NCBI GenBank assembly: GCA_947471365.1
Contig: CANIWQ010000014.1
Coordinates: 1-37,323, forward strand
Reading direction: 5' to 3'
Source: Gemmatimonadota bacterium
GTDB taxonomy: Bacteria > Gemmatimonadota > Gemmatimonadetes > Gemmatimonadales > Gemmatimonadaceae
DNA length: 37,323 nt
In this document: positions 11,201-34,691 of the stretch, piece by piece
How positions within the stretch are numbered: position 1 is the stretch's first letter
Layout of the letters: each line of letters opens with the position of its first letter
Translations under genes and position numbers: made by a program
The notes under the pieces: generated by a model
Told to the model about the DNA's origin: nothing
What the model saw: only the letters and a program-made list of their open reading frames with translations
Databases searched by the model: none

Positions 11201-11530
11201 GTCGCGGACGCGGCCACCCCGTTGCGTGGGCGCTTTGAGGCACTGCGAGACGAACTCACCGAAGTCAGTTGTCATGTGGACCAGTGCACACTGGATCAAC
11301 CGATTCGCCTCTATAACATGCTGATCTCGCTCAATGCGCAGATTCAATCTGGCGATTACGGCCCGACCAAGCAGCACGGTGAAGTGTCGGTGGAGTTGTC
11401 CGCCAAGGTGGGCGCGGTACTGCGGCGCCTGCAGCAGCTTGAGGATGCGGAGCTGGCGGCGTTCAATAAACTGCTCCAAGACGTGGGGCTTCCGCCCATC
11501 TACCAGCGACCGCGCAAAACTATTCTCTAG
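8246..11530 (+). CDS. exported sortilin/VPS10-like Asp-box propeller protein A
   Basis: About 1094 residues with a signal peptide ending ALA-Q near residue 26. The body is a large propeller built from about eleven Asp boxes (S-x-D-x-G-x-x-W type), for example KTANGGQTW, RSTDGGEHW, RSADGGRHW, KSLDGGDTW, RSDNGGATW, LSTDAGAHW and VSLDDGAHW. This is the fold of VPS10/BNR-repeat proteins. After residue 770 comes an Ig-like FlgD-type segment (NRFSWNLHYPG and PPGTYRVRLIVG) and an alpha-helical tail. Such proteins are often labelled glycosyl hydrolase, but I see no catalytic residues to support an enzyme. A paralogue lies at 17100-20417. No Shine-Dalgarno; ATG 8246 is chosen from the signal peptide. 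Family assignment is secure, function unknown. Confidence 0.9.
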   Translation: MNARLQTQIAAVALACSMSSTMALAQRPKAAAAPAAPSTAPSSSYSAALYTDPSATSSRLKAMRWRLAGPFRGGRSVAVAGDPSDARVFWFGAVNGGVWKTANGGQTWHNVTDGRSDISSVGAVTLAPSDHNVIYVGTGEAQLREDLTYGTGVYRSTDGGEHWQHLGLGDTQHISKIVVDPRDPERVFVAAMGHAFGPNAERGIFRSADGGRHWSKVLFLNDSTGAIDLAMDPGNPRILYASMWKFQRTPWGMNAGSGRSGLWKSLDGGDTWSELSFNAGIPRTPLGKIGIAVSPTRPQRIWASIEAPDSAGGVFRSDNGGATWERTSGDQKWSVRPFYYSALTADPVDENTVYIMNLQVWRSVDGGHAFSQVHVPHGDTHQLWIDPKDPKRMINANDGGATISYDGGRSWSTQQNQPTAQFYHVTTDQQFPYRVYGAQQDNSTVSMASRSDEGAIGLRDFFSVAGCENATIAVDPRDPNVTYGGCYTGILTRNDRATRQDRDVSVWLSNYDGWAARDVPYRFQWTFPILLSAHDPSTLYATSQFVHRSTNEGASWEKISPDLTRHDAATLGRSGGPIHGDMTGTEWYATIYAFAESSRRKGVLWAGSDDGLVHLSTDAGAHWTNVTPRAYGAFTRTAGIEPSHFDAATAYVAANRYQQDDFHAYIWKTTDEGRNWTAIGTGLPNGAYVRTVREDPVRRGLLYAGTETGVYVSLDDGAHWEPLQLNLPRVSVRDLAVHGHDLVAATHGRAFWILDDISSLRQMADSVTAARAHLFQPAPALRWISGGAASATEGANPRGGATIDFWLKDAPKEKVHLQFLDAAGTVIRTYDSDTPPVDSVTARADSATRASLAARRDSLAFDAADSVVSARAGSNRFSWNLHYPGATALKNTVLDEGTLDGPMAPPGTYRVRLIVGADSLVRTFAVVADPRVKTSAADLVAQFQAALRVRNKITELAESVGRIEDTQAQIDARLEHSKDQTFAKRVADAATPLRGRFEALRDELTEVSCHVDQCTLDQPIRLYNMLISLNAQIQSGDYGPTKQHGEVSVELSAKVGAVLRRLQQLEDAELAAFNKLLQDVGLPPIYQRPRKTIL

Positions 11531-11727: not shown

Positions 11728-13137
11728 TCACTTCATCTTCGCCACTTCGAGACGTACGCCAGCGCCATCGCGGACGCCCATGTACACCACGCCGTGCCCA
11801 AAGCCGGCAATCACGCGACCCGCGGGCATCAGCACACGATCGATCAACTCACCTTTCGCGTTGATCACATCGTACACCGAGCCGCCCTGCACCACCTTGG
11901 TCGTGCGGACCCACATGTTGCCGTCGAGATCACCGCGCGCCGAACCGGCCTGGAACGGCGGTGCGTAGTCGGGCAGTTCGCTCGGTGAGACCATATTGAT
12001 GGGTGGAACGTTGACGCCACCAAAACCACCGCGGCCGCCTTCGCCGCCGCCGCGCATCGGCGGCATCGGACCGTCACCGCCGATCTGCACACGTAGCTGC
12101 TGCCCTCCACCGCCTCCTCCGAGTCCCGCAACGCCGCCGCCCATCACTGCCGCGGCACCCGCCTGCATCGCACCCGTATTGCCCGACATCGCCGCCGAGC
12201 GAACCTTTTCCATCGCGACACGCGCCGAGTCGAGAAAAGCGATTTTGTCCTCTTCGGTCATCCGCTTCCAATCGAAAGGCACCTTGGGCGTCGTCGCCTT
12301 GGTGCCATCTGGACGCGTCCACTCGATGTGGTAGTCCTGGCCGCGCAACACGGCCACCGATCCGTCGGAAAGGATGGCCCAGTCGTCAACCGTCGGCAGC
12401 GGGTTCATCGTCACGTTCACTGACATTCGGCCGGCATCATCGCGCGACACCAGCACGCTTGACTTCGGAATCTTCAGATACGCGAGCGTGTCCACTTTGC
12501 GCGTCGCTAGGTCCATGCGCATGAGTGGCGCCGAATCTGGCATCGAGGGCTGCGCCGTGGCACCACTACTGTGATTGTGATCACCACCGGCCGCGGGCAT
12601 CGACATGCGAAACGCCGGCATGCCGCGAAACAGCAACCGACCGTCGCGGTCGGTGCCCGGCGTGCCATTGGGCCCACCGATCAGCAGCCCCGCCTCGTTG
12701 GCGCGCGGCACACTCATGACGCGGGCAATCTTCCCTTGGCCGTCAAGCACGAGCATGGAGAGCGACTGCGGGTCGACGAACAGCGTGGTGTCACCCTTCC
12801 ACGGGATCAGGCCGCCCGCACGCGAGCTGTACGCGTTGGCCGTGGCGCTGGTCGTGTCGGCAATCACCGCATACGAGGCAAGCGTGGTGTCGAACAGCAC
12901 GACTTTCCGCCCATTCAGGTCGTTGATGATGACGCGGCCATCGGGAAGCTGACGCGCCTGTGACACTGCGCCCAGCAGTTCCTTGGACGCGTGCGTCACC
13001 GGACCGAGCGGACGCTCGCGCACCGGCTGTTGGGCCCCGAGGGCGCCCGCGAGGGCGACGGCGGCAAAGAACGTTCGAGCGAGAGGCATGGCAGTGTTGG
13101 TTGAACGGTGGTCGTAATGGTAGTTTCGCGATTGCAT
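11728..13137 (-). CDS. secreted propeller-like protein coupled to the TonB receptor gene
   Basis: Up to 469 residues. It carries a signal peptide (MPLARTFFAAVALAGALGAQ) and repeated short beta segments such as LPDGRVIINDLNGRKVVLFD and DRDGRLLFRG, consistent with a six-bladed propeller; no catalytic motif is seen. A Gly/Met-rich insert (GGGVAGLGGGGGG and MRGGGEGGRGGFGG) lies about residues 325-375. Two starts are possible. ATG 13137 overlaps the receptor stop as TGATG, which favours translational coupling and adds 16 residues before the signal peptide; ATG 13089 gives a compact signal peptide. Neither has a Shine-Dalgarno. The tight link suggests a periplasmic or surface partner of the receptor (inference). 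I do not recognise a named family. Confidence 0.8.
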   Translation of the reverse strand: MQSRNYHYDHRSTNTAMPLARTFFAAVALAGALGAQQPVRERPLGPVTHASKELLGAVSQARQLPDGRVIINDLNGRKVVLFDTTLASYAVIADTTSATANAYSSRAGGLIPWKGDTTLFVDPQSLSMLVLDGQGKIARVMSVPRANEAGLLIGGPNGTPGTDRDGRLLFRGMPAFRMSMPAAGGDHNHSSGATAQPSMPDSAPLMRMDLATRKVDTLAYLKIPKSSVLVSRDDAGRMSVNVTMNPLPTVDDWAILSDGSVAVLRGQDYHIEWTRPDGTKATTPKVPFDWKRMTEEDKIAFLDSARVAMEKVRSAAMSGNTGAMQAGAAAVMGGGVAGLGGGGGGQQLRVQIGGDGPMPPMRGGGEGGRGGFGGVNVPPINMVSPSELPDYAPPFQAGSARGDLDGNMWVRTTKVVQGGSVYDVINAKGELIDRVLMPAGRVIAGFGHGVVYMGVRDGAGVRLEVAKMK

Positions 13138-16100
13138 CAGCGCATGATGATGACGTGGCGTTCGCCGCCGACGCCGACGGGCATGCCCATACCGCCACCG
13201 CCGCCGAACCCACCGCCGCCGGCGCCCGCCGTGCCGCTGCGGATCGCCGCGAGGTACCGCGGTTCAAGATAGCTGGCCACGATGGCTGGCAGCTTGCGCC
13301 GCTGTTCCGCGCTCAGCAGTCCCTTGGTGCCTGGGGCGAGCTGGGTCAGTATGTCCACCGTGCCTTCGCGTGCGCGACGGTACACGCGGTACGCCTCATC
13401 TTCGTCGTACTTGTCCGGAAGTGCGGCGAGCAACTTGGCGGCCGGGCTCCAGATGGAGTCGAGGCGCACCGTGTACCAACGGTTGAGCGTCGCGAGGCTG
13501 TCCGCCTGCTTCTGCGTGAGCCCCAGTGAGTCCGCCTGACGCAGCATCGTGGCCATTGGATTCACCAGCCCGCCGCCATTGGCGTACACCATTTTCAAGA
13601 TCTGCTCGCTCATCTTGTTCCCCGACGAGCGTCGACCGGCATTGAGTTGCTGCACCAGCGACTGCTTTTCGCGCGTCGGGCCAAGATCGAAGCGCATCAT
13701 TGCCGTCACCACCACCGGTTGGCGGAAGGCGTTGGTGGCCGGACTGGTGTTGCCGAAGCGCTGGTTGACTTCGTACTTGAAGCGCTGCGCCGTCGGATCG
13801 TAGCCGCGGACATAGAGTAGCTGATTATCCGGCGTCGCCGGCTGCCCCCATCCCTTCAGATTGTTCTCGCCGTGTAGCACCAAATCCGCCGCGCCGAGCG
13901 GATTGTTGATGGCCAAGCTGAGCGTGGCGCGCTGCGGCAACCCGAGTTTGAGCGGGTTGAACGAGATCGACATATTCGCCGTGGTCGTCCACGGACCTTC
14001 GCAGCTGTTGCGGTCGGCAATGCGACCGAGCTGCCCCTGCAGACAGGTGCGCACATTGGCGCTGCTCTTGGCGAGCAACGACTGCATGGCGCTCGCCACC
14101 GTCGGATCGGGAGCCGTGGCGGGATTGTAGATGAAGGCACGGTCGTTGGAATAGCCGTCGCCGTTGACGTCGCCCGCAATCGTCGGCGTGAACGGTGATC
14201 CCGACTGCACGCGGCCGTTCCACGACACGCGCACGGCGTCAAAGAAGTTGTAGCCCACCGTGTACGTCACCTGATGATGCGCGTCCATCGACGACCGCCC
14301 CCACGTCACATCGAGCGGATTCCCGGCCGTGCTCGAAAAGCCGCGATACTGCTCGCGGTAGTTCGAGTACACATACGCGAGGTTCCACGACCAGCTGGTG
14401 TTGAACGTCACTGGCGAAAAACTCGCCTGTAACTGCTGGCTCTCTGAGGTGAGATCGCTCCGCATCTCTGACACGCGGTTGTACAAACTCGTCACCCGCG
14501 CGTCGCGCGAGGCAATCGCGCCCGAGGTTGGCACAATGCTGGTGGGCTGCACGTACACGGGACGTCCGGCCTCGCTGGCCAACGCAAAACGCCGCACGGG
14601 CGAAAAATTCAAATCCACGCCAGCGCCGGTCTGGTTCATGTTGCGCGAGTACGTACCCTGGAACGTGGCCTGGAACGTGTTGTTGAGAATCGAACCGCTC
14701 CACGACAGCACGGAGCGAAGCGCACGTTGCGCGGCATAATCTTTGGAAAACAACGTCACGTTAGGCGCACTGTTGGCAAACACAGTCCCGGCCGATCCGT
14801 CAACACAGGCCGACGGAATATTCGCCAAGCTCGTGCTGTAGGCGTCCCAGTTGGGGAGCGGCGCCGCGGGGCCCATGCACGTCACCTGCTGCACCGCACT
14901 CGGCAGACCGGTGTTGTCGATGGCGTTGCCCACCAACTGCGTCTGCGGGGTGTTCTGGAATACGCCAATGCCGCCGCGCACCACCGCACGCGGGCCGCGC
15001 ACGGCACCTTCAAAACCCCCAATCTGCTGCGCCGTGCCGTAGGTCCACGAAAAGCCAACGCGCGGACTCAGGTAGACTTTGTTCGGCACGTAATCGTTGC
15101 GCACGCCAAACGTCTCTTCGAGCTTCGTATTCCGGACGGGAATCCCCTCGTACTGATTGCCGTCCACGCGCAGACCGTACTGAATCTGCAAGTCACTGTT
15201 GCGGCGGTACGAATCACCGAGCGCGATGCCACCGATATACTGCGCGCCTTCACGCTGACGCGGCGACAGATTGCGACTGAACACGGAGGGGCGTCCGGCC
15301 TGCACATCGGCGAGTGAGTTGAACGAGAACGAACCCAGCAGGTTGGTGGTCTGGTCCTGCGTGTAATCGTCGCGGCGCAGTTCGGTGGTGAGCTTAATGC
15401 GATGCTTGTTGTTCTCGCTAAACCAACTGAGCAGGTTCGAGAACTGCGCCGTCCCATTGCGCGATGATGCATTGAGAAACGCGCTGCCGCCGAACTGGAC
15501 GAACTTCACACCATTGGTGCCGTCGGCAAACGTCGAATTGACGAGCACACTTCCGCTCGGTAACGACAGATAGGGCGTCCCCCAGTTCTTGGCCGAACTG
15601 TAAGAGAGCTGTGTTTCGCTGAGCACCCCGAATCCGAAGTACGTCGAGTGGCGCCCCTGCACCATGCCGTTCCAGTTGGTGCGGTCGCCGCTGTGCGAAG
15701 GAAACTCGCTCGTGGCGTTGAGCACCGGCGTGTTCATTCCCCACGAGCCCTGATACGTCAGGTTCCACGCCGTGCCGCTCCGTGAACCTGTTGGGGCCAC
15801 ATCAATCGTCCCCAGCACTAGCCCCTGATCACTCATACGGTTGCTCGGAATGCCCCCGAGCGTGGTCGGCACCTTGAGCTGATTCAGAATATTCGTGAGC
15901 CGAGTCACGGAGTCGGCGGAGATGCCGCTCGTCTGTAAACCCAGCGCATCCGTGTTGAGCAACGTCTTGAGCTCGTTCGACCGCCGCCCAAGCTGATAGC
16001 TAAAGGTGTAGAACGATTCGTCGAGCTTCACCGGACCGGAAAAACGGCCACTCAGCGAGGTATTGCTGTATTCCTGCCCCAGCGCGCGTGCCGCGCGGTC

Positions 16101-16868
16101 GGTCCACTGCAGCGAGGGCGAGTCGAGATTGAGTGACGCCGAGCGAATTTTGAAGTTCGACCCACCACTCGTGCGCACGCTGAACCGACCACCGCTCGAC
16201 CCGCCACTGCTCACGTCCCACTGCGAGGAGTTGAGCGAACTCGAGAGCGCCGCGTCGCGCGGCAGGTCACCACCGCCGAACGCTGCGCCATTCAACGTCG
16301 TGCTGCTCTGATCGGCGGAAAGGCCAAGGACCGAAAAACCCGAGGGATCGCCATCCGCTCCAGGAATGAGCGTCACCCCTGGGAGGGACGCCGCCATCGC
16401 GGCCAGATTGCCCAACTGATCGGCAGCGAGCGCGGAGCTGTTGACCGATTTTTCGGTGCCAGAGATGTCTTTGTTCGCATCGTTGCGGTCCACGCGGTCG
16501 CGCGAACCGGTAATGCGCATCGCGTCGAGCTCCTGCGAGCGGCTCAACTTGGCGTCGGCGATCAGGATGTCCTGATCCGCCGTCCGCTTCACCTCAAACC
16601 GCTTCTGCGCGTAGCCGATCTGGTTGAAGGTGACGAAATAGTCGCCCTCGCCATTCGGGAAAGTGACGGTAAAGCGGCCGCCCTTATCGGTACGGGCCTG
16701 CCGGTTCACCGCGCCCGAGATCGACGTCACAGTGACCCGCACCCCTTCGATCGGGACCGAATCTTGGTTGATCACCTTGCCGCGGATCACGTCCGTTTGG
16801 GCGGCGAGCGGCTTGGCGGCAATCAGGAATAACACGCAGAGCAGAAACTGCAGACGGCGCAACGACAC
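13137..16868 (-). CDS. TonB-dependent receptor with carboxypeptidase-regulatory N-domain and helical C-terminal extension
   Basis: About 1243 residues. A signal peptide (SLRRLQFLLCVLFLIAAKPLAAQ) is followed by a CarboxypepD_reg-like beta-sandwich (VIRGKVINQDSVPIEGVRVT), a plug domain (about residues 115-250, with LNGAAFGGGDLPRD) and a long outer-membrane barrel ending near PVVVTAMMRFDLGP. After the barrel come about 179 more residues: a helical region with GLTQKQADSL and LLSAEQRRKLP, resembling the LTxxQ motifs of Spy/CpxP-type periplasmic proteins, then a Gly-rich tail. Receptors of this type import large ligands with TonB energy; the substrate is not deducible. GTG 16868 puts the signal peptide at the N terminus; TTG 16919 would extend it by 17 residues. 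The next gene overlaps its stop. Confidence 0.9.
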   Translation of the reverse strand: MSLRRLQFLLCVLFLIAAKPLAAQTDVIRGKVINQDSVPIEGVRVTVTSISGAVNRQARTDKGGRFTVTFPNGEGDYFVTFNQIGYAQKRFEVKRTADQDILIADAKLSRSQELDAMRITGSRDRVDRNDANKDISGTEKSVNSSALAADQLGNLAAMAASLPGVTLIPGADGDPSGFSVLGLSADQSSTTLNGAAFGGGDLPRDAALSSSLNSSQWDVSSGGSSGGRFSVRTSGGSNFKIRSASLNLDSPSLQWTDRAARALGQEYSNTSLSGRFSGPVKLDESFYTFSYQLGRRSNELKTLLNTDALGLQTSGISADSVTRLTNILNQLKVPTTLGGIPSNRMSDQGLVLGTIDVAPTGSRSGTAWNLTYQGSWGMNTPVLNATSEFPSHSGDRTNWNGMVQGRHSTYFGFGVLSETQLSYSSAKNWGTPYLSLPSGSVLVNSTFADGTNGVKFVQFGGSAFLNASSRNGTAQFSNLLSWFSENNKHRIKLTTELRRDDYTQDQTTNLLGSFSFNSLADVQAGRPSVFSRNLSPRQREGAQYIGGIALGDSYRRNSDLQIQYGLRVDGNQYEGIPVRNTKLEETFGVRNDYVPNKVYLSPRVGFSWTYGTAQQIGGFEGAVRGPRAVVRGGIGVFQNTPQTQLVGNAIDNTGLPSAVQQVTCMGPAAPLPNWDAYSTSLANIPSACVDGSAGTVFANSAPNVTLFSKDYAAQRALRSVLSWSGSILNNTFQATFQGTYSRNMNQTGAGVDLNFSPVRRFALASEAGRPVYVQPTSIVPTSGAIASRDARVTSLYNRVSEMRSDLTSESQQLQASFSPVTFNTSWSWNLAYVYSNYREQYRGFSSTAGNPLDVTWGRSSMDAHHQVTYTVGYNFFDAVRVSWNGRVQSGSPFTPTIAGDVNGDGYSNDRAFIYNPATAPDPTVASAMQSLLAKSSANVRTCLQGQLGRIADRNSCEGPWTTTANMSISFNPLKLGLPQRATLSLAINNPLGAADLVLHGENNLKGWGQPATPDNQLLYVRGYDPTAQRFKYEVNQRFGNTSPATNAFRQPVVVTAMMRFDLGPTREKQSLVQQLNAGRRSSGNKMSEQILKMVYANGGGLVNPMATMLRQADSLGLTQKQADSLATLNRWYTVRLDSIWSPAAKLLAALPDKYDEDEAYRVYRRAREGTVDILTQLAPGTKGLLSAEQRRKLPAIVASYLEPRYLAAIRSGTAGAGGGGFGGGGGMGMPVGVGGERHVIIMR

Positions 16869-16995
16869 GGAGGGATGGGCAGGTGGGTGGGTACGGCGGG
16901 GGCTTCGATATGCCCGCAAAGGCCCGATGGATTCCTCGGCTTCTCGACCGATTATTCCTTCGATCTGTTAGAAACCACCGGGCAGGTAAAAGGTT

Positions 16996-17099: not shown

Positions 17100-20000
17100 C
17101 TACGGCAGGATCACCGGCACCGCCTTTTTGGCCAGAATGTCGGACAACTGGGGTCCCTTTGCCGCGTTGAAGCCCTTCACGTCCTTCTCCATCAGCTTCG
17201 TGAATGCGGCCTTCGCCACGCTCAGATCCTTTTCCAACTCCCCGAGCGTGGCCGCCTGCGCGTCCGTCGGCCGATACTCGGCGCCGCCGGCCACGTCGCC
17301 GCCGCCCGTGCCCACCTCGGCCGACAGCCAGATCAGCCCGAGGTAGAGTTTGTGGCGCTCGGTAAACCATTTGTCGTCGCTGTGCAGCTCCGTGCGCGAG
17401 AGCAACTGAAGCTCCACTTCGAGCGCTTTTGCGTCCACCTCGGCGAGTCGCCCCTTGGTGGCCGCGCTCGTGCTATCGGCCACAGTGAGATCTTCAATCT
17501 GCTTGCGCAACACCTCGAGCCGGTTGATGAGATCCACCGTCCCATTGATCGCGCTCACCGCCCGCACCTGCGCCGAGGTGGCCGCCTGCAAATCCGCGAT
17601 GTTGCTCGGCAACGAGGGATCCTTCGCCACGGTAAACGCCTGCGTCGCCGTGGCGTTGCCTGCCACGATTTTCACGGAATACCGCCCTGGCGCCGCCAAG
17701 GCACCCGCGCGCTGCGGTTGCTGAATGCCCCAGTGATCGACGATGCGCGTGTCCTTGTTCTTGAAGCGCGGCTCGTCCCAAATGTGTGGGTTATCGGGCG
17801 GCGTCGTGCGCAACTCGGGCTGTTTGGGCCCTTCGTGGCGCAGATCCCACGTCACGCGATTGGTGCCGGCACGCGCCAGCGTCCGCAGGGTGCGCACGAC
17901 CGTACCAGTCGAGTCCACAATCTCAATGGCGAGCGAATCGCGCGGCGCGTCCTTGAGCGTGAAGGTGACATCCGCACTTCCACCGCGCGCCGTGCGAAGG
18001 CCGGGCCGCGGCTCAAAAATACGAATCGGGGCGTCGGCCACCTGCTTGTCCGATTGCTCCAACAGCGTGATGTCGCGCAGCACCCAGAGTCCGCGCCCAT
18101 ACGTAGAGACGACCACATCGTGCTGGTGCTTGTTGATGGTGATCCACGACGCCGGCGCCGCCGGAAGCCCGGCGTCGAGCTTCGTCCACTTGGCCCCATC
18201 GTTGAGCGAATAGAATATTTCGTGCCCGGTGCTCGCAAAGAGCATGCCTTTGCGATTCGGGTTTTCGGCAATGCTCATGGCGTACGCGAGCGGATGATCC
18301 TGCGGAAGCCCGTCGCTGATGCGCGTCCACGTCTTGCCAAAGTCGGCGGTCTTGAAGATGTACGGCTTGCGGTCGTCCATCATGTGGTAATCCGCCACCA
18401 CATACGCGGTGCCGGCATCGAAGCGCGACGGTTCAATGCGACGAATCGTGGCCCACGGCGCCATCCCCGTGACGTTCTTGCTCACATCGTTCCACTGCTT
18501 GCCGCCGTCGGCGGTGTACCAGATCTTGCCGTCGTTCGTGCCAGCCCACACCAAGCCGCGCTTGATCTCACTTGGCGCAATCGAAAAGACCACTTCGCCA
18601 TAGAACTGACCGAGGTTGTCGCCAATGATGCCGCCGCTCGAGACGATGCGCGTGGGATCGTTGGTGGACAAATCGGGACTGATCACGTTCCAGCTCTGTC
18701 CGCCATTCGACGTTTTGAAAATCACCTGACAGCCGTAGTACACGGTCTGCGGATCGAAGGGATCAATGGCGAGTGGCGGCGTCCAGTGGCAACGATACTT
18801 GGAATTGTTCGGTTCAAAGTCGAGCGTGTGCCGCCACGGACTCACCGAACGCACCTGCCCCATTTTGTGATCGTAACGCGTGACCGTATTGCCGTAGCAG
18901 GTGGCCCACACGACGTCGGTGTTGCCCGGCGTGGGAATCGTGAAACCCGATTCGCAACCGCCGAGCGGACCCTGCCATGGCGATACGCCACCGCCTCGTG
19001 CCCCGAAGCCGCCGAACTCTGCAGCCGCGTCGTCACCGCTCGCGGCACTGGCCGCGCCGCCACGCCCCGCCCCCGCACCGCGCGCACCGCCGCGCCCGTA
19101 GCCGGGCACATTGCTCACCGTCATCTGCGCCGCGCTCGAGGCGCGTACAGAACGGCTGTCGTCTTGTTTGTTGCTGTAAATCCAATACGGCATCTGGTCG
19201 TCGATCGCCACGTGGTACATCTGCCCCACGGGAAGCGAGAACTGATTGAAGCTCACGCCGTGATTGCGCGTGATGCCGGCGCCGCCGTCACCCGTGGTCA
19301 CCCAGTGCGACGGATTGCGCGGATCCATCCAGATGTCGTGGCAATCACCGCATCCGCGATCGCTCAGCGGCCACGTTTCGCCGCCGTCATACGAGCGTTT
19401 GAAGGTGGAGTTGGCAATCAATACTTCGAGATCGTTCTGCGGATTGACGTCAATACGGATGTAGTAGCCCGCGCGCCCAATGAGCGAGCGATCCCAACTC
19501 ACCACTTTCCACTTCTTGCCGCCGTCGTCGCTGCGCCACACGGAGCCCTGCGTGGGCGTTTGAATGAGCGCATACATGCGCTTGCCGTTGGACGGTGCGA
19601 TGGCCACATCCACTTTGCCGAGTGGCGACTTGGGCATCCCCGCCGCGTCGGACTGACGGGCCCACGTGGAGCCGCTGTCGTGCGAGACGTACACACCACT
19701 ACCCGCGCCGCCGCTGTACATGGCGTACGTGTGCATCACCACTTCCCACGTGCCGGCAATCAAATTTTTCGGATCGCTCTTGTCGATCGATAATCCAGAG
19801 CAGCCCGTGTTTTCATTTACGAAAAGCACTCGCTGCCAGTTGGTGCCTCCGTCCGTGGTGCGATACACACCACGCTCCTGCTGCGGCCCCGTCGCGCGGC
19901 CGAGTGCGCAGACGTAGACGATGTTGGGGTTGGTGGGATGCACAATGATTTTGCCAATGCGCCCCGTTTCCTTGAGCCCCATATTCGTCCAGGTCGCGCC

Positions 20001-20417
20001 GGCGTCGCTGGACTTGTACACGCCGTCGCCCATGACGTCGGCGTCGCGAATGGCCCACGCTTCGCCGGTCCCCGCCCACACCACGCGCGAGTTCGACGGT
20101 GCCACCGCGAGTGCGCCAATGGCCTGCGACGATTGATCGTCAAAGATGGGCTGAAACGTGCGCGCGCCGTCGGTGGTCTTCCACACGCCACCGGATGCCG
20201 CACCGAAGTAGTACGTCATGGTATCACCGGGGATACCCGCCACCGAGGCGATGCGCCCACCGTTGTCGGGTCCCACGTAGTCGAAGCGCGGCGGCTGCAC
20301 CGCCTGTGCGCCACCACCACCGCCGCGCCCACCGCCGCGTTGCGCGAGCGCGGGAACGGCGACGATCGCCGAGAGAACGAGCGCAGACACCACACGCACA
20401 CGCGAGAAAGCACGCAT
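17100..20417 (-). CDS. exported sortilin/VPS10-like Asp-box propeller protein B
   Basis: About 1105 residues. The signal peptide MRAFSRVRVVSALVLSAIVAVPALAQ fixes the ATG at 20417, with AAGG seven bases upstream; the open frame to 20681 is ignored. A Gly/Arg-rich patch follows cleavage. About eleven Asp boxes are visible (KTTDGARTF, KSSDAGATW, RTTDGGTNW, RSDDGGKKW, RSYDGGETW, KTSNGGQSW, YTADGGKQW, KTADFGKTW and others), then an FlgD-like Ig segment (GTNRVTWDLRHEG, APGRYSVKIVAGN) and a helical tail, the same plan as the protein at 8246-11530. A second Gly/Ala/Arg-rich insert lies mid-protein. Unlike its paralogue it has CGDCH (19338-19352), a CxxCH motif, where the paralogue has HGDTH. Function unknown; no hydrolase site is evident. 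Confidence 0.9.
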   Translation of the reverse strand: MRAFSRVRVVSALVLSAIVAVPALAQRGGGRGGGGGAQAVQPPRFDYVGPDNGGRIASVAGIPGDTMTYYFGAASGGVWKTTDGARTFQPIFDDQSSQAIGALAVAPSNSRVVWAGTGEAWAIRDADVMGDGVYKSSDAGATWTNMGLKETGRIGKIIVHPTNPNIVYVCALGRATGPQQERGVYRTTDGGTNWQRVLFVNENTGCSGLSIDKSDPKNLIAGTWEVVMHTYAMYSGGAGSGVYVSHDSGSTWARQSDAAGMPKSPLGKVDVAIAPSNGKRMYALIQTPTQGSVWRSDDGGKKWKVVSWDRSLIGRAGYYIRIDVNPQNDLEVLIANSTFKRSYDGGETWPLSDRGCGDCHDIWMDPRNPSHWVTTGDGGAGITRNHGVSFNQFSLPVGQMYHVAIDDQMPYWIYSNKQDDSRSVRASSAAQMTVSNVPGYGRGGARGAGAGRGGAASAASGDDAAAEFGGFGARGGGVSPWQGPLGGCESGFTIPTPGNTDVVWATCYGNTVTRYDHKMGQVRSVSPWRHTLDFEPNNSKYRCHWTPPLAIDPFDPQTVYYGCQVIFKTSNGGQSWNVISPDLSTNDPTRIVSSGGIIGDNLGQFYGEVVFSIAPSEIKRGLVWAGTNDGKIWYTADGGKQWNDVSKNVTGMAPWATIRRIEPSRFDAGTAYVVADYHMMDDRKPYIFKTADFGKTWTRISDGLPQDHPLAYAMSIAENPNRKGMLFASTGHEIFYSLNDGAKWTKLDAGLPAAPASWITINKHQHDVVVSTYGRGLWVLRDITLLEQSDKQVADAPIRIFEPRPGLRTARGGSADVTFTLKDAPRDSLAIEIVDSTGTVVRTLRTLARAGTNRVTWDLRHEGPKQPELRTTPPDNPHIWDEPRFKNKDTRIVDHWGIQQPQRAGALAAPGRYSVKIVAGNATATQAFTVAKDPSLPSNIADLQAATSAQVRAVSAINGTVDLINRLEVLRKQIEDLTVADSTSAATKGRLAEVDAKALEVELQLLSRTELHSDDKWFTERHKLYLGLIWLSAEVGTGGGDVAGGAEYRPTDAQAATLGELEKDLSVAKAAFTKLMEKDVKGFNAAKGPQLSDILAKKAVPVILP

Positions 20418-20488
20418 CAGATTGCCTTGGAAGGGGCTATTCAGCTGGTCGAGCAACGGCAGGGAATGTACGGCATTGTCATTAACGC

Positions 20489-20525
20489 GGCACGGGCGCG
20501 CAGTCGTTGGCTTCGCGCCCGTGCC
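20489..20525 (-). terminator. hairpin downstream of the small membrane protein gene
   Basis: Perfect 12-bp stem (GGCACGGGCGCG and complement) with a 13-base loop, 20 bases after the stop of the gene ending at 20546. No T-run follows on the minus strand, so it may be a processing or pausing hairpin instead. Confidence 0.5.
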
Positions 20526-20545
20526 CCTCTCGCCCCAGCCGTGCG

Positions 20546-21106
20546 CTACCTCGGCCAGAGCCAGCCAAAGATCCCGGCGGTGAACAGCGCGTAGAGCAAC
20601 CCGTCCGCCGCCGACGCGAGCGTGATGCGCCAGGCTCTGCCGTACCAGATGGACGTTTGCGGCAGCGCCATGGCGTAGCAACTAAAGGTCGTCACGCCGG
20701 CAAAGCGAAACACCTCTAGGTACGAAGCGCCAGGCGGCAAGGCGCGTCCGGCCACATACGCGGCCAAGGTCCAGATCACGAGCGAATACACAAACCACGT
20801 CGCCAGTTGACTCGCCATGCCAAAGTCGCCCGGTGGCAACATCGTCAGGATGAAGCGTGGCCCCTGCTTGGCTTTCGCCTGAAACTCCGGCGACTTCATA
20901 TCTGCCATCGACGAGGGCCGCGGTGCCATGTAGTCACCAGCGCTCAGATTGAATGGGCGCAATGCCGACATCACGTCCGCTTCCCGCTCCAGCGTGCGAT
21001 AATCGCTTTTGTGCCAAGGCAGCACCATGTGCACCAGCGAACTCAGCACGAACACCGCCACAGCCGACAGCACAATCGGCAACCAGAGCGCGTGAAGACC
21101 GGTCAT
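20546..21106 (-). CDS. uncharacterised four-helix membrane protein
   Basis: 186 residues. One hydrophobic helix at the N terminus (about 7-28), a polar segment of about 70 residues containing PWHKSDYRTLE and an Ala/Pro/Met-rich stretch, then three more hydrophobic segments (about 98-120, 128-150, 160-183). The polar segment lies between helices 1 and 2. The start ATG at 21106 has a clear GGAGG four bases upstream. It reads in the same direction as the Asp-box gene behind it, 128 bases away with a hairpin between, so co-transcription is uncertain. I do not recognise a named family or enzymatic motif. Confidence 0.8.
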   Translation of the reverse strand: MTGLHALWLPIVLSAVAVFVLSSLVHMVLPWHKSDYRTLEREADVMSALRPFNLSAGDYMAPRPSSMADMKSPEFQAKAKQGPRFILTMLPPGDFGMASQLATWFVYSLVIWTLAAYVAGRALPPGASYLEVFRFAGVTTFSCYAMALPQTSIWYGRAWRITLASAADGLLYALFTAGIFGWLWPR

Positions 21107-21262: not shown

Positions 21263-22738
21263 ATGCCGACGCCCAGCCACAAATCCGACCTCACGCTCGA
21301 CCCCGCCAACTGGGACGAGTTTCGCGCCATCGCCCATCGCATGGTCGATGACGCACTCGACCACATGTCCACACTCAGCGAGCGCGCTCCGTGGACACCG
21401 TTGCCGCCTGCCGTACGTCAGGCGCTGACCACCGAGCCCGTGCCCCACAGGCCGCAGGGCATCGAACGTGTGTACGCGGAGTTCGCCGAGCGCGTGCTGC
21501 CGTACACCAACGGCAATCGGCACCCGCGCTTTTTTGGATGGATCCAAGGCAACGGCACACCACTCGGCATGATGGCCGACATGCTGGCCGCTGGCATGAA
21601 CGCACATCTCGCCGGGCTCGACCAAGCACCGAAGCTCGTGGAGATGCAGGTGATTGCCTGGCTCGCCGAGTTGATGGGATTCCCCAAAGATTCATCGGGG
21701 CTGCTCGTCAGTGGCGGTTCCATGGCAAACATCCTCGCCCTCGCCGTGGCGCGCCACGCCACCTGTGGCTTTGACGTGCGCGAAGACGGACTGCACAACC
21801 GTCCGCGACTCACCGTATACACCTCAAGCGAAATCCACAGCTGGGCACAAAAAGCCGTCGAACTGTTCGGCATGGGGAACGCTTCGCTGCGCCGAGTGCC
21901 GGTCAACGACGACCTGCGCGTGAATGTCGACGCCATGCGCACCATGATTGCCGCCGATCGCGCCGCCGGCATGCGTCCCATCTGCGTGATTGGCTCCGCC
22001 GGCACGGTGAACAGTGGTGCGATTGACGATCTCAACGCACTCGCCGATCTCGCCGCGAGCGAAAAACTCTGGTTCCACGTGGACGGTGCTTTTGGCGCGC
22101 TCGCCGCGCTATCGCCAGCGCTCAAACCGCGCGTCGCCGGCATGGAACGCGCCGACTCCGTGGCGTTTGATCTCCATAAATGGGGCTATCTCCCCTATGA
22201 GATTGCCTGCTTTCTTGTACGAGACGCCGAGGCGCATCGGTCAACGTTCGCCGTTACGCCCACCTATTTGCGCGACGAAGGCCGTGGCGTGATTGCCGGC
22301 GGACTGCCCTTTGCCGATCGCGGCCCCGAGCTCACGCGTGGGTTCAAAGCGCTCAAAGTATGGATGACGTTCAAGGCCGAAGGGGTGGCGCGCATTGCCG
22401 ACGTGATTGAGCAGAACGTGGCGCAGGCCGTGGCGTTTGCTGACCGCCTCGCGCGCATTCCGCACATCGTGGTTGTGGCGCCGGTGTCGCTCAACGTGGT
22501 CTGCTGGCGCGCGGTACCGCCCAACGCGAGCGACAGCGAAGCCGACAGCTTTAACAAGGAACTGCTCCTTCGCATTCAAGAAGCCGGCGTCGCGGTGCCG
22601 AGCGGGTCGCAGCTCGGCGGACGCTACATCATTCGCGTGGCTTGCTCGAATCATCGCAGCACCTGGGCCGATTTCGAAACGCTACTCGCGGGCGTCGGGC
22701 GGATCACGGGCGAGATGCTGTCGGAACGCAGCGCCTGA
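21263..22738 (+). CDS. PLP-dependent group II decarboxylase (aromatic amino acid decarboxylase family)
   Basis: 491 residues, the usual length for aromatic-L-amino-acid or related decarboxylases. Fold-type I PLP motifs are in place: SGGSMANILALAVAR (phosphate cup), HVDGAFG (Asp binding the pyridine nitrogen) and DLHKWGYLPYE with Lys306 as the Schiff-base lysine. FFGWIQGNGTPLGMMADML near residue 90 matches the substrate-side N-terminal region. The usual DYRHWQ-like segment after the catalytic loop is replaced by GVIAGGLPFADRGPELTRGF, so it belongs to a divergent bacterial branch and its substrate cannot be named. Cytoplasmic, no signal peptide. No strong Shine-Dalgarno; ATG 21263 is the first in frame with similarity. 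A strong terminator follows. Confidence 0.88.
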   Translation: MPTPSHKSDLTLDPANWDEFRAIAHRMVDDALDHMSTLSERAPWTPLPPAVRQALTTEPVPHRPQGIERVYAEFAERVLPYTNGNRHPRFFGWIQGNGTPLGMMADMLAAGMNAHLAGLDQAPKLVEMQVIAWLAELMGFPKDSSGLLVSGGSMANILALAVARHATCGFDVREDGLHNRPRLTVYTSSEIHSWAQKAVELFGMGNASLRRVPVNDDLRVNVDAMRTMIAADRAAGMRPICVIGSAGTVNSGAIDDLNALADLAASEKLWFHVDGAFGALAALSPALKPRVAGMERADSVAFDLHKWGYLPYEIACFLVRDAEAHRSTFAVTPTYLRDEGRGVIAGGLPFADRGPELTRGFKALKVWMTFKAEGVARIADVIEQNVAQAVAFADRLARIPHIVVVAPVSLNVVCWRAVPPNASDSEADSFNKELLLRIQEAGVAVPSGSQLGGRYIIRVACSNHRSTWADFETLLAGVGRITGEMLSERSA

Positions 22739-23451: not shown

Positions 23452-24744
23452 TTAAACAATCCCTTTCTTGATCGCCTTCGTGACCGCATCCGCAAACGTG
23501 TCAATCTCCTCCACCATCGTGTACACGTTGGGCGTGATGCGAATGCCCTGAAACTCCGGATGCACAATGGGCGTGTTTACAATCTTGTACTTATCGAGGA
23601 GCCACCCGCCAAGTTTACCGGGCTCAATCCCCTTCACATTGAACAAGCAGATGGCGCCGCTCTTCTCGCCGGTGAGCGGCGTCAACACTTCCACGCGATC
23701 GCTCTCGGCGAGCAGTCGGTTGGCCCAACGGTTTCGCAAATAGCGCAAGCGCGCAATCTTGCGCTCGGCGCCAATGCCACGACTGAACGCAACCGCTGCG
23801 CTTACGGCGTTGAAGTTGGCCTGCGGGTGCGTGCCAATCTCTTCGTACTTACGGATGTTCCCCTGATTGGCGCTCACCGAGCCCATCAACGACCAGAGCT
23901 TCGCAATCTTCGACTGACGCACATAGAGGAATCCGGTACCGATCGGCGCCAGTGTCCATTTGTGCAGACTCGTGCCGTAGTAGTCGCAGTCGAGATCGTC
24001 GCGCTTGAATGGGAAGTGATTGAAGGCGTGCGCACCGTCCACAAATACTTCAATGCCAAGCGGGCGCGCCATATCCACAATCTTGCGGACCGGCAAGATC
24101 TGGCCCGTGAGGTTGGTGATGTGCGTGACCTCAATCACCTTGGTGCGCGGCGTAATGGCCTGCCGGAATTGCTCGACGATATACTCGTCGCTCGGCGGCG
24201 GCACCTTGAAGGAGATCTGCTTGAGCACAATCCCCTCGCGGCGCACGCGCTGCTCCCACGAGGTGATCATGCGCGGATAGTTCTGGTTGGTGAGCAACAC
24301 TTCGTCGCCGCGCTTGAGATCGAGACCGAAAATCATGATCTCGTTCGCTTCGCTGGCGTTACGCACAACGGCCATTTCTTCGGGGTCGCATCCGAATTCC
24401 TTGGCGAGATCGCGGCGCGTGCTCTCCATGCGCGGCTCGAGCACACGCCACATGTGCTCCACCGGCAGCTCGTTGGTAAAACGCAAATCGCGGAACAACT
24501 GCTCGAGCACGTGGCTCGGCGTTGGCGAAATGCCGCCGTTGTTCAAGTTGATCATCGTGCGGTCGGCGTCGAATGCGCGCTGGATCTGACTCCAGTACGT
24601 CTCGTCTTCCGCCACCTCGAGCGGCGACCGTTCGCCAGCAATCGTGTTGGCCTTGAACAGTCGCGCAAAGGCATTGTCCCGCATCATCGGCAACGAGACA
24701 CCCGCGCCGGCCAGGCTCTTCACGAACGTGCGACGATCGGTCAT
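23452..24744 (-). CDS. Tat-exported class V aminotransferase (isopenicillin N epimerase-like)
   Basis: 430 residues of the PLP aminotransferase class V family, which includes cysteine desulfurases and isopenicillin N epimerases. Visible are RNASEANEIMIFGLDL (cofactor cup), FVDGAHAFNHFPF (Asp and His) and GTSLHKW with Lys262 as PLP lysine. The N terminus, DRRTFVKSLAGAGVSLP, is a good twin-arginine signal, implying that the folded holoenzyme is sent to the periplasm. No desulfurase-type catalytic cysteine loop is obvious, so a C-S lyase role is not supported. The start ATG 24744 has GAGGA three to four bases upstream, overlapping the previous stop; the gap to the upstream CBM48 gene is seven bases. 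Substrate unknown. Confidence 0.9.
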   Translation of the reverse strand: MTDRRTFVKSLAGAGVSLPMMRDNAFARLFKANTIAGERSPLEVAEDETYWSQIQRAFDADRTMINLNNGGISPTPSHVLEQLFRDLRFTNELPVEHMWRVLEPRMESTRRDLAKEFGCDPEEMAVVRNASEANEIMIFGLDLKRGDEVLLTNQNYPRMITSWEQRVRREGIVLKQISFKVPPPSDEYIVEQFRQAITPRTKVIEVTHITNLTGQILPVRKIVDMARPLGIEVFVDGAHAFNHFPFKRDDLDCDYYGTSLHKWTLAPIGTGFLYVRQSKIAKLWSLMGSVSANQGNIRKYEEIGTHPQANFNAVSAAVAFSRGIGAERKIARLRYLRNRWANRLLAESDRVEVLTPLTGEKSGAICLFNVKGIEPGKLGGWLLDKYKIVNTPIVHPEFQGIRITPNVYTMVEEIDTFADAVTKAIKKGIV

Positions 24745-32605: not shown

Positions 32606-33283
32606 TTACTTGGCGCCGCCTCGACCGCGGCCGCCACGACGGCGCCGACGTTTTGCAGGAGCCGCGCTGGCGGGGTGCACGGCAGCGGTAGTCTTCACGA
32701 CCGGCTTTGCCGGCGTACGCGCGCCAACAGTCCGAATCGGCTTGCGTGGTGCCTGCGGCTCCGCATCGCTGTAGGGAGAGGGCTCCCCGTATGGCGATTC
32801 CCCGCCGTCATGCGGATGCGCACCAAAGAGTTCCTTCGCCGACTTCTTGCGCGGGCGCTTCGCCGGCTTGGGGGGCGGCAACACGACTTCGTCCCCAACC
32901 ATCGGCCGGAGAATGTCGAGAATGCCATCGCTCAGATGCTGCCCATACATATAGAGATGCCGCGCGCGCGCGCGCCCGCCGAGTACCCAGGCAAGGAAGG
33001 ATTTGTCGGCCTTGGCGGTGTTGCAGGTCTTGCACGCGAGCACGAGGTTGTCGCGCCGGTCGTAGGCCGACTGGCCTCGGCGCGGCGTCACATGGTCGAG
33101 CGTCAGCGTCAGGGCAGGAAAGGTGCGCCCACAGTACGCGCACACCGGACCATGCGCGTGGAGCAACCACTCGCGCGTTTCGGCGTAGGCCGCGCGCCCC
33201 GTGGGGACCGACGTGTGTTCGATGCGGGGTTTTCCGCCGCCGCCACCGCCGGAGCGCCGGCGGCGTTTCTGAGGAGTCGCCAT
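32606..33283 (-). CDS. HNH endonuclease with basic Gly/Arg tails
   Basis: 225 residues. The HNH core is VCAYCG (Cys48, Cys51), LTLDHVTPRRGQSAYDRRDNLVLACKTCNTAKAD, containing the Asp-His, Asn and second Cys-x-x-Cys pair that bind zinc and metal. This is the common free-standing HNH type; its target is unknown. The N terminus (PQKRRRRSGGGGGG) and the C terminus (AKRRRRRGGRGRGG) are basic and Gly-rich, likely binding nucleic acid. The start is ATG 33283; ATG 33334 would add 17 residues. No Shine-Dalgarno. A run of alternating C and G lies inside the gene near 32961-32974. It diverges from the ATP-grasp gene. Confidence 0.9.
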   Translation of the reverse strand: MATPQKRRRRSGGGGGGKPRIEHTSVPTGRAAYAETREWLLHAHGPVCAYCGRTFPALTLTLDHVTPRRGQSAYDRRDNLVLACKTCNTAKADKSFLAWVLGGRARARHLYMYGQHLSDGILDILRPMVGDEVVLPPPKPAKRPRKKSAKELFGAHPHDGGESPYGEPSPYSDAEPQAPRKPIRTVGARTPAKPVVKTTAAVHPASAAPAKRRRRRGGRGRGGAK

Positions 33284-33309
33284 TAAATGAACAGTACTGG
33301 GTTGGGCTT

Positions 33310-33336
33310 TCCGCCGCGAACATTCGGCGTTCATAC
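33310..33336. promoter_or_regulatory. AT-rich promoter patch between HNH and ATP-grasp genes
   Basis: The 94-base space between divergent starts contains TAATAATGT on the minus strand (a possible -10 for the HNH gene) and GAAC-ATTCGGC-GTTC, an imperfect dyad. Coordinates are approximate; I cannot place a -35 box confidently. Confidence 0.25.
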
Positions 33337-33377
33337 ATTATTAGGTAGCGGGCGGAGCGTGGTGGGCACACTGTGCC

Positions 33378-34604
33378 ATGGACTGGAACTGGAGCGGGGC
33401 CGTGGAAGACGAACATCGATTGATCGGTTACGCCCAACTGCTACGGCTCGCCCAGTCCGGAGCCGACCTCCAGCCGTTGATTGCGCGCCTCATGGAGCGC
33501 GCCAAACGGGGTGAGCGCGCGGCCGACGCGCTAATGGATCTCTCGTGGATTTTCCTGCTCGCCCAGCAGCCTGAGATGGCGGTCACCACCCAGTCGCTCG
33601 CGCTGAAGCTGCAGCAGACGTACAAACTTCCAGCCCCGAACAGACGCGTCGGCCTGCGCTTGGTGGCCTTGCTCTCCGCGGGAGACTATCTCGCCAGCAC
33701 CCCGCTCGAGTTTCTGCTCGAAGGTTCGGATGTCGCGCTAGAACTGTGCTTTGTTGGTGCGGAACTGCCATTGCCGGCCACGCTGCCGGAACACGATGTG
33801 CTGTTCGTAGCCGTGTGCGAGTCCGATGACCATCTCGAGTTGCTGCAGCACATCGACGAGCGCGTCGGCGCCGACCACGGCCGCGTCGTGAACAGCCCCA
33901 GCCATATTTCCAACCTCGCGCGTGACCGAGCGAGCGCGTTCCTGCGCTCCGCCCCCGGCGTGGCCATGCCACTGACCGTGCGTGTTTCTCGGGCGACGCT
34001 CGAATCGGTCGCGGCCGGCGCCGCAACGATCACCTCGGCCGTCGAGGTGCCCTTTCCGATCATTGTGCGCCCCGTGGGGTCGCACATGGGCAAGCGACTC
34101 GCGAAAATCGACGATGCGCCCTCGCTCGCCGCCTATCTCAGCGCAGAATCAGAAGAGGAGTATTACGCCGCCGCGTATTTCGACTACCAGAGCGCCGACG
34201 GGCAGTATCGCAAGCATCGCGTTGTCCTCATCGACGGCCAACCGTTCGCCTGCCACCTGGCCATCTCCGATCACTGGGTCGTGAGCTACATGAGTGCCAG
34301 GATGGAGGAGAGCGCATCGAAGCGCGCCGAAGAAGCGCAATGGATGGCGTCGTTCCACGAGACCTTTGCGGCGCGGCACGCTGAGGCGTTTCGCGCCGTG
34401 CATCAGCGCCTGCGGCTGGACTACGTGGTGCTGGACTGCAGCGAGACCGCCGATGGCCGCTTACTCATTTTCGAGGTGGACACCGCCGCGCTGGTGCATG
34501 CCACCGACCCCGTCGACGTGTACCCATATAAAGTGCCGGCGATGCAGTCGGCGTTCACAGCATTCCGTGCGCTACTCGAACGTGCGCGTCGAGAGATTCG
34601 GTGA
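33378..34604 (+). CDS. ATP-grasp ligase-like protein with helical N-terminal repeat region
   Basis: 408 residues. The first 80 are helical and repeat-like (LLRLAQSGADLQPLIARLMERAKRGERAADALMDLSWIF), resembling TPR. The rest is an ATP-grasp type fold: FPIIVRPVGSHMGKRLAKIDD (nucleotide-binding strand and glycine loop), YYAAAYFDYQSADGQYRKHRVVLIDGQPFACHLAISDHWVV, DYVVLDCSETADGRLLIFEVDTAALVHATDP (metal-binding Glu/Asp region). ATP-grasp enzymes join a carboxylate to an amine with ATP; the RimK/glutathione-synthetase type is closest. No precursor peptide or partner is obvious, so substrate is unknown. ATG 33378 is the first start with a sensible N terminus; no Shine-Dalgarno seen. Divergent from HNH, followed by a secreted amidohydrolase. 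Confidence 0.8.
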   Translation: MDWNWSGAVEDEHRLIGYAQLLRLAQSGADLQPLIARLMERAKRGERAADALMDLSWIFLLAQQPEMAVTTQSLALKLQQTYKLPAPNRRVGLRLVALLSAGDYLASTPLEFLLEGSDVALELCFVGAELPLPATLPEHDVLFVAVCESDDHLELLQHIDERVGADHGRVVNSPSHISNLARDRASAFLRSAPGVAMPLTVRVSRATLESVAAGAATITSAVEVPFPIIVRPVGSHMGKRLAKIDDAPSLAAYLSAESEEEYYAAAYFDYQSADGQYRKHRVVLIDGQPFACHLAISDHWVVSYMSARMEESASKRAEEAQWMASFHETFAARHAEAFRAVHQRLRLDYVVLDCSETADGRLLIFEVDTAALVHATDPVDVYPYKVPAMQSAFTAFRALLERARREIR

Positions 34605-34691
34605 TACGTGAGACGGGACGGTCGTAGCGGTCGCGGCGTGCGTGCGCTACCTTTTGCGCGGAATCGCCAGCCCTCATCCGGAGCACGTCGT

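Follow-up and report, generated by a model that had tools for sequence, protein, structure and literature searches.

The window ligase, encoded within a stretch of Gemmatimonadota DNA of 37,323 nucleotides (the window), is supported by its modelled structure as a RimK-fold ATP-grasp ligase of an unnamed family. Relatives of the gene partner with genes for PLP enzymes and occur in flagellar neighbourhoods in several lineages, and the window genome itself carries flagellin. These PLP neighbours and flagellar loci point to a flagellum-related modification rather than to an unplaced protein-tagging enzyme. The reading developed here, which has in our judgement an even chance of being correct, is that the protein is a carboxylate-amine ligase, fed by PLP enzymes, that makes an amide-linked decoration of flagellin or of its glycan. 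A ligase family without a Pfam model, and named only generically in the plasmid annotations examined, thereby gains a testable assignment; if true, PLP-fed amide-bond chemistry would be added to the known decorations of bacterial flagella.

Fold and active site of the ligase

The open reading frame that an earlier note had described from the sequence was confirmed in its position, strand and length (Table 1). It is a real gene and not a chance reading frame, since it aligns, at 37-56% identity, with 29 homologues whose frames contain no internal stop. An AlphaFold model built from an alignment of homologues has a mean pLDDT of 93.7 and a pTM of 0.91, and in this model the larger, C-terminal part of the protein superposes on the ATP-grasp enzyme RimK. 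Other chains of RimK, LysX and ArgX superpose at Z 18.0-18.7, and the next structural matches are glutathione synthetase, Ddl ligases, synapsins and inositol kinases at Z 15-17.

Table 1. Coordinates of the ligase gene, its parts and the surrounding variable segment in the window
Feature	Position	Strand	Remarks
RimK-like ATP-grasp ligase gene	33378..34604	+	408 aa; no Pfam family
N-terminal part, residues 1-92	33378..33653	+	four helices in model, TPR-like shape; outside RimK superposition
ATP-grasp part, residues 93-408	33654..34601	+	superposes on RimK 5zct_A in the model (Z 19.1, rmsd 3.6, 269 aligned)
Nucleotide-binding loop RPVGSHMGKRL (presumed), residues 231-241	34068..34100	+	alignment and residue table
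Putative metal site D353, E366, D368	34434..34481	+	conservation in aligned rows
Family motif PYK, residues 383-385	34524..34532	+	same in 30/30 rows
Variable segment, no blastn match in G006	33329..34666		holds ligase gene only

The ATP loop (R231-G238), K279, R281, D353, E366 and D368 are all present in the window ligase. Across the 30 aligned rows formed by this protein and its 29 homologues, K279, R281, H293, D353 and the PYK motif are invariant, and E366 and D368 are conserved in 27 and 28 rows, respectively. Both motifs singled out in the earlier note, RPVGSHMGKRL and FEVDTAALVHATDP (residues 365-378), fall at the expected sites of the fold. The former is presumed, from known ATP-grasp enzymes, to be the nucleotide-binding loop, and D353, E366 and D368 are taken, by analogy with RimK, to form the metal site. 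A loss of essential ATP-grasp residues, proposed earlier as a refutation, is not seen in the window copy and occurs in three relatives from Methylosinus, in which E366 is replaced by Lys and the loop glycine is also gone. These three ligases (L029, L030 and L032; near 9959-11176) adjoin flagellar genes, and because Lys replaces E366 and the ATP loop is eroded, they may no longer be enzymes.

Searches with sequence models returned no Pfam match for the window ligase at E 1 and no Pfam ATP-grasp family at E 0.01 in any of the 30 family members; ATP-grasp_4 (Pfam 13535, the SfmE type) likewise matched neither the window ligase nor the 30 members. Against the RimK family of NCBIfam (TIGR00768) the protein scores 22.9 bits with a cut-off of 143.4, and in the PDB the best sequence match is to a RimK-related protein of lysine biosynthesis (E 0.0016). 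With no Pfam match and a score so far below the RimK cut-off, the ligase belongs to an unnamed RimK-like family, and the earlier description of a RimK-type ATP-grasp ligase is supported by the modelled fold and the retained residues.

Ahead of the ATP-grasp part, the model contains four helices between residues 18 and 78, and residues about 50-80 resemble one TPR by eye. Two Pfam TPR families each match one of the 30 members at E about 0.005, and no Pfam TPR model matches the window ligase itself. The TPR-like N terminus proposed earlier thus stands as a shape but not as a family; with only two weak, single-member matches, the term is a description rather than an assignment. It is possible that these helices recruit a protein substrate.

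PLP enzymes and flagellar genes beside the relatives

A single scan of genome contigs, using a profile of three sequences, supplied the homologues and gave 31 loci. Ligase frames without internal stops were taken from 29 of these (the copy at L009 reaches its contig end), leaving out a fusion ended by a contig end (L035) and a match of 32 residues (L036). Two of the loci, L007 and L027, are the two copies in G017, a genome of the same genus as the window genome (G000) with contigs named Kiruna2_bin-1709 (Gemmatimonadetes MAG), and both were also in the query profile. Sampling was extended by a class draw of 369 genomes, taken evenly from the class of a Sulfuriferula genome (G065), and by a phylum draw of 395 genomes, the best four candidates per genome being scored in each. 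The class draw yielded matches in 26 genomes, of which 10 were full-length with E values under 1e-100, and the phylum draw yielded the window genome and two further full-length members. Among the genomes examined here the family spans three phyla; seven plasmid records also carry a relative of the ligase, and three of these were inspected.

Neighbour clustering together with Pfam identified three types of PLP protein linked to the ligase, namely a decarboxylase (PF00282), an unnamed protein of about 530 residues and a SerC-like protein. A partner of any of these types lies within 3 kb of the ligase in 17 of the 29 loci (L006-L034), and none of the listed types was found within that distance in the other 12 (L007, L016, L018, L020, L024, L025, L028-L032 and L034); at L018 a DegT-type aminotransferase, not counted as a partner, adjoins the ligase. 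When the centre genome is set aside, all nine full-length members of the class draw have an adjacent PLP partner (seven decarboxylases and two SerC), and decarboxylase and ligase are adjacent in both of the further Gemmatimonadota members from the phylum draw. At L035:7470-9686 (forward strand) the unnamed PLP-like protein is fused in one frame to the start of the ligase, inside which the contig ends.

The unnamed protein has invariant TGSK and VDAC motifs and is probably a fold-type-I PLP protein, judging from a weak model (mean pLDDT 61, informative for fold class only) that has PLP enzymes among the 50 Foldseek matches listed; its sequence profile gave no convincing relative in the PDB. The one SerC-like partner tested scored 613 bits against a curated phosphoserine-transaminase cut-off of 563. 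A decarboxylase tree with 25 members separates the 21 that are linked to the ligase, on one fully supported side, from the decarboxylase of the window and three kin from its genus on the other. Two loci from Holophagaceae (L009:6094-11140 and L026:3606-8746) show a further arrangement in which two paralogous ligases flank one decarboxylase.

The flagellar setting of the relatives was assessed by tblastn with the flagellar and chemotaxis proteins of E. coli K-12, with CheY, CheB, Tar and FliA set aside. Such genes are present in 12 of the 29 ligase loci and in none of 40 control stretches (Fisher p 6e-6, with ancestry ignored), and 17 loci gave no flagellar match in this test. The controls start at contig ends of 16 host genomes and comprise 585,571 bases in all, compared with 450,465 in the 29 loci; 27 of them are at least 15 kb long. 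One of the 12 positive loci, L007, has cheW only, and a stricter count from which it is dropped, and in which only the 27 long controls are kept, gives 11/29 against 0/27 (p 2e-4, again with ancestry ignored); near kin among the loci include five from Methylocystaceae and three from Chromatiaceae.

The flagellar loci are found in several lineages. In Sulfuriferula (L011) a decarboxylase, the ligase and a PLP protein are accompanied by a GGDEF gene, fliC, flaG, fliD and fliS, and in Malikia (L019) the ligase and SerC occur with fliC, flaG, fliD and fliS beside flagellin glycosylation-type genes, including a GT41 among the glycosyltransferases. Flagellar context is also found in Chromatiaceae (L021, L022 and L033), in Methylocystaceae (L020, L029, L030, L032 and L034, with fliK detected by Pfam in L029 and L032) and, as a further separate lineage, in Holophagaceae. 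Pfam adds FliS next to the ligase in L026 and about 9 kb from it in L006. Closer to the window gene, the flagellin operon of G017 carries, beyond fliC-fliD-fliS, genes for a decarboxylase and a ligase, together with glycosyltransferase and methyltransferase-like genes (the methyltransferase-like gene scoring below Pfam cut-offs), and the matching operon of the window genome is without this decarboxylase/ligase island (L047, G017:C518, versus L045, G000:C21).

Of 40 host genomes, 38 have flagellin, made up of 25 of 27 locus hosts, G000 and G017, G607 and G709, and nine members of the class draw; it was not found in the two MAG hosts behind L016 and L026, the latter locus having FliS. The background is 200 of 369 genomes in the class draw, against which nine of nine draw members corresponds to a Fisher p of 0.0036 (ancestry ignored), and 20 of 61 for a set made up of the window genome plus 60 relatives; the set of 21 hand-chosen genomes that includes G607 and G709 gave 12/21, a figure that is no background rate. 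A search for sigma-28 promoters in 40 upstream stretches, for which several operon starts are approximate, showed no signal ahead of the operons, with one stretch at p 0.05 and a median p of 0.79. Five stretches upstream of flagellin served as positive controls; two had a site with one mismatch, one with three and one with four, and one had nothing.

The main rival to a flagellar role is a small-molecule pathway, producing a dipeptide-like or amide metabolite, a signal or an osmolyte, that is unrelated to flagella and whose mobile cassette often settles near motility genes. This is a tentative possibility, clearly behind the flagellar reading. PLP enzymes and an ATP-grasp ligase could by themselves constitute a complete pathway of this kind; flagellar genes accompany three of the nine class-draw members (L123, L126 and L128), and no flagellar gene lies within the stretch taken in the other six; for the plasmid cassettes of Paraburkholderia and Rhizobium, the stretch seen contains no gene annotated as a flagellar structural one, the plasmid gene table being incomplete; and within the genus of the window genome the gene is patchy, occurring in two of 18 genomes. 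Against a metabolite pathway stand the repeated siting of the cassette beside fliC, flaG, fliD and fliS in several lineages, the count of zero such genes in the 40 control stretches and the near-universal flagellin of the hosts.

Two further loci are recorded as separate observations. On a conjugative plasmid of Cupriavidus (L039:11956-13205) a relative of the ligase is split into two ORFs in the annotation, with glycosyltransferases and an flgB-named gene close by. At L036:5490-5585 the 32-residue match, to the C terminus of the ligase (E 8e-6), lies next to fliA, fliS and motA and is perhaps a remnant or a chance similarity.

The window locus and its place in the family

The genomes of the genus that carry the ligase gene are G000 and G017, and five flagellin-positive genomes of the genus are without it. 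G006, of the same genus, matches the window DNA on both flanks at 92.5-95.6% identity, with 110 bases between the flanking matches compared with 1338 in the window; because the right end of these 110 bases resembles the window, the variable piece is about 1.2-1.3 kb. Relative to G006, the ligase at this locus is a single gene gained or lost. No phage match to the ligase was obtained by tblastn in 50,697 phage records, none of 138 pattern matches in viral contigs was confirmed, and PADLOC gave no defence match for the ligase and two weak ones for the decarboxylase.

In a tree of 43 rows the window ligase groups with L007 of G017 and three genes from Holophagaceae (support 100/100), and a second clade (also 100/100) unites the other G017 copy, that of the flagellin operon, with the second copies from Holophagaceae L009 and L026. 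Of these two paralogous clades the window gene belongs to the first, as a solo copy carried by a flagellated member of the Gemmatimonadota. From this layout, its kin in Holophagaceae have a linked decarboxylase, and no decarboxylase lies near either of the Gemmatimonadota members of the clade.

Neither a linked PLP partner nor a flagellar neighbour accompanies the window copy. The earlier statement that no pathway gene is nearby is therefore accurate for the immediate neighbours in the window but does not extend to the relatives, which have adjacent PLP enzymes and flagellar loci. The neighbours of the ligase are an HNH protein (32606-33334, reverse strand), the HNH part of which resembles IscB and Cas9d models but scores far under the cut-offs, a CPBP protease and an amidohydrolase. 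None is treated as a partner, because matching DNA is present in G006, which is without the ligase.

A PLP decarboxylase (21263-22738, forward strand) lies 10.6 kb upstream of the ligase and is nearest to diaminobutyrate decarboxylase models, far below their cut-off. Some match to it occurs in all 18 genomes of the genus; the best match reaches at least 69% over nearly the full length in 12 of the other 17 genomes, and another two contain pieces at contig ends with 72%. This enzyme was rejected as the missing cassette-specific partner, being widespread in the genus and outside the linked side of the decarboxylase tree; it could nevertheless supply an amine to the ligase. Elsewhere in the window are a protein of class V aminotransferase fold (23452-24744, reverse strand), weakly similar to PvdN and cysteine desulfurases and well below the cut-offs, and two large sortilin/BNR-repeat proteins (8246-11530, forward, and 17100-20681, reverse) with a TonB-receptor-like protein between them (13137-16919, reverse).

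The solitary state of the window copy, together with its lack of a linked decarboxylase, the absence of any match to the unnamed PLP protein in a genome that is 98.8% complete and the missing gene in the close relative G006, would be expected of a remnant or stray gene that has lost its pathway and has little role in its genome. Such a history is unlikely. The frame is open and all the listed active-site residues are kept, codon-position G+C resembles that of the neighbouring genes, and the orthologue-like copy in G017 (L007, which is followed by cheW) is also intact with no PLP partner in its short contig.

Proposed function and the nearest known systems

A flagellar decoration remains the preferred reading, although several observations weigh against it: the solo state of the window copy away from flagellar genes, the five flagellin-positive genomes of the genus that are without the ligase, the loci that gave no listed PLP partner or no flagellar match, the lack of a sigma-28 signal, the two hosts in which flagellin was not found and the two plasmid cassettes. 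The proposed course of the reaction is as follows. The protein would be a cytosolic, ATP-dependent carboxylate-amine ligase of RimK fold, belonging to a family that pairs with an amino-acid decarboxylase, with or without the unnamed fold-type-I PLP protein, or with a phosphoserine-type transaminase. Judging from their families, the PLP enzymes would supply the small amine or amino acid; a carboxylate, activated by the ligase with ATP to its phosphorylated form, would then be joined to it in an amide bond. The genomic context makes the flagellar filament the most likely destination of the product, which would decorate flagellin or its glycan before export. The solo window ligase, if it keeps the task of its family, would draw its amine or acceptor from elsewhere in the cell. 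A bolder form of this proposal, which is rather doubtful, is that the family represents a new chemistry of flagellum decoration, in which a dedicated PLP-made amine or phosphoserine-like amino acid would be joined by the RimK-like ligase, in amide linkage, to flagellin or to a glycan sugar before export, the PLP modules being interchangeable across lineages.

The closest structural likeness of the protein is to RimK, and this likeness, the additional helical N-terminal part and the solo state of the window copy could instead reflect a tagging ligase that attaches amino acids directly to a protein docked by the helices, with no dedicated PLP partner. This is a little less likely again than a remnant, as the relatives are tied to PLP enzymes, suggesting a special small substrate, and likeness of fold does not show the substrate; if flagellin itself were the acceptor, protein tagging would merge with the preferred reading of a flagellar decoration. 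A graspetide-type ligase cross-linking a small precursor peptide would share the ATP-grasp fold but is very improbable, since the variable segment holds the ligase only and each of the seven small ORFs found around the window gene with a ribosome-site-like motif overlaps the ligase frame.

The open-access literature, covered mostly as titles and the beginnings of abstracts, contained no description of this ligase family or of a cassette of PLP and ATP-grasp genes in flagellar loci, and a prior mention is possible; a term search of two papers (PMC8939145 and PMC4431377) found no flagell-, decarboxylase or TPR terms.

Among characterized enzymes, RimK (ribosomal protein S6 glutamate ligase; PDB 5zct, 7qyr, 7qys and 4iwx) resembles the window ligase in fold over its whole length (Z 18.5-19.1) and in having the ATP and metal residues in equivalent motifs. 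It differs in sequence, with 9-12% identity in the superpositions and a family cut-off far above the score of the window ligase, in being without the extra helical N terminus, and in the PLP enzymes that lie beside the relatives. LysX and ArgX (PDB 3vpd, 5k2m and 3vpb) share the fold at Z 18.0-18.5 and are the best PDB sequence matches, though weak ones.

Known flagellar systems offer likenesses of setting. In type A Clostridioides difficile and in P. aeruginosa PAO1, a flagellin sugar bears an amino-acid-derived group whose genes lie in the flagellar locus, but by the available text the link is a phosphate, and the proteins proposed are kinase-like and cytidylyltransferase-like rather than an amide ligase (PMC4441256). 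The type B flagellin locus of C. difficile contains an ATP-grasp gene, CDR20291_0245, near flagellin glycosylation genes, but this is described in the accessible part of the source as Pfam 13535 and carbamoyl-phosphate-synthetase-like (PMC5207246). A parallel in setting and length is SfmE (SO_3265) of Shewanella oneidensis, an ATP-grasp_4 protein of 412 residues, about the length of the window ligase, encoded in the sfm flagellin-modification operon (PMC3765264). According to the available text, deletion of sfmE gives a flagellin mass shift slightly smaller than that seen when its partners are lost, and the mutant spreads less in soft agar but still swims (PMC3765264). SfmE belongs to a different ATP-grasp family by the annotation of that paper, and it is partnered by a PseI-like protein, a reductase and a methyltransferase, with no PLP decarboxylase or SerC mentioned in the part available (PMC3765264). 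SfmE provides a precedent for an ATP-grasp gene in flagellin modification.
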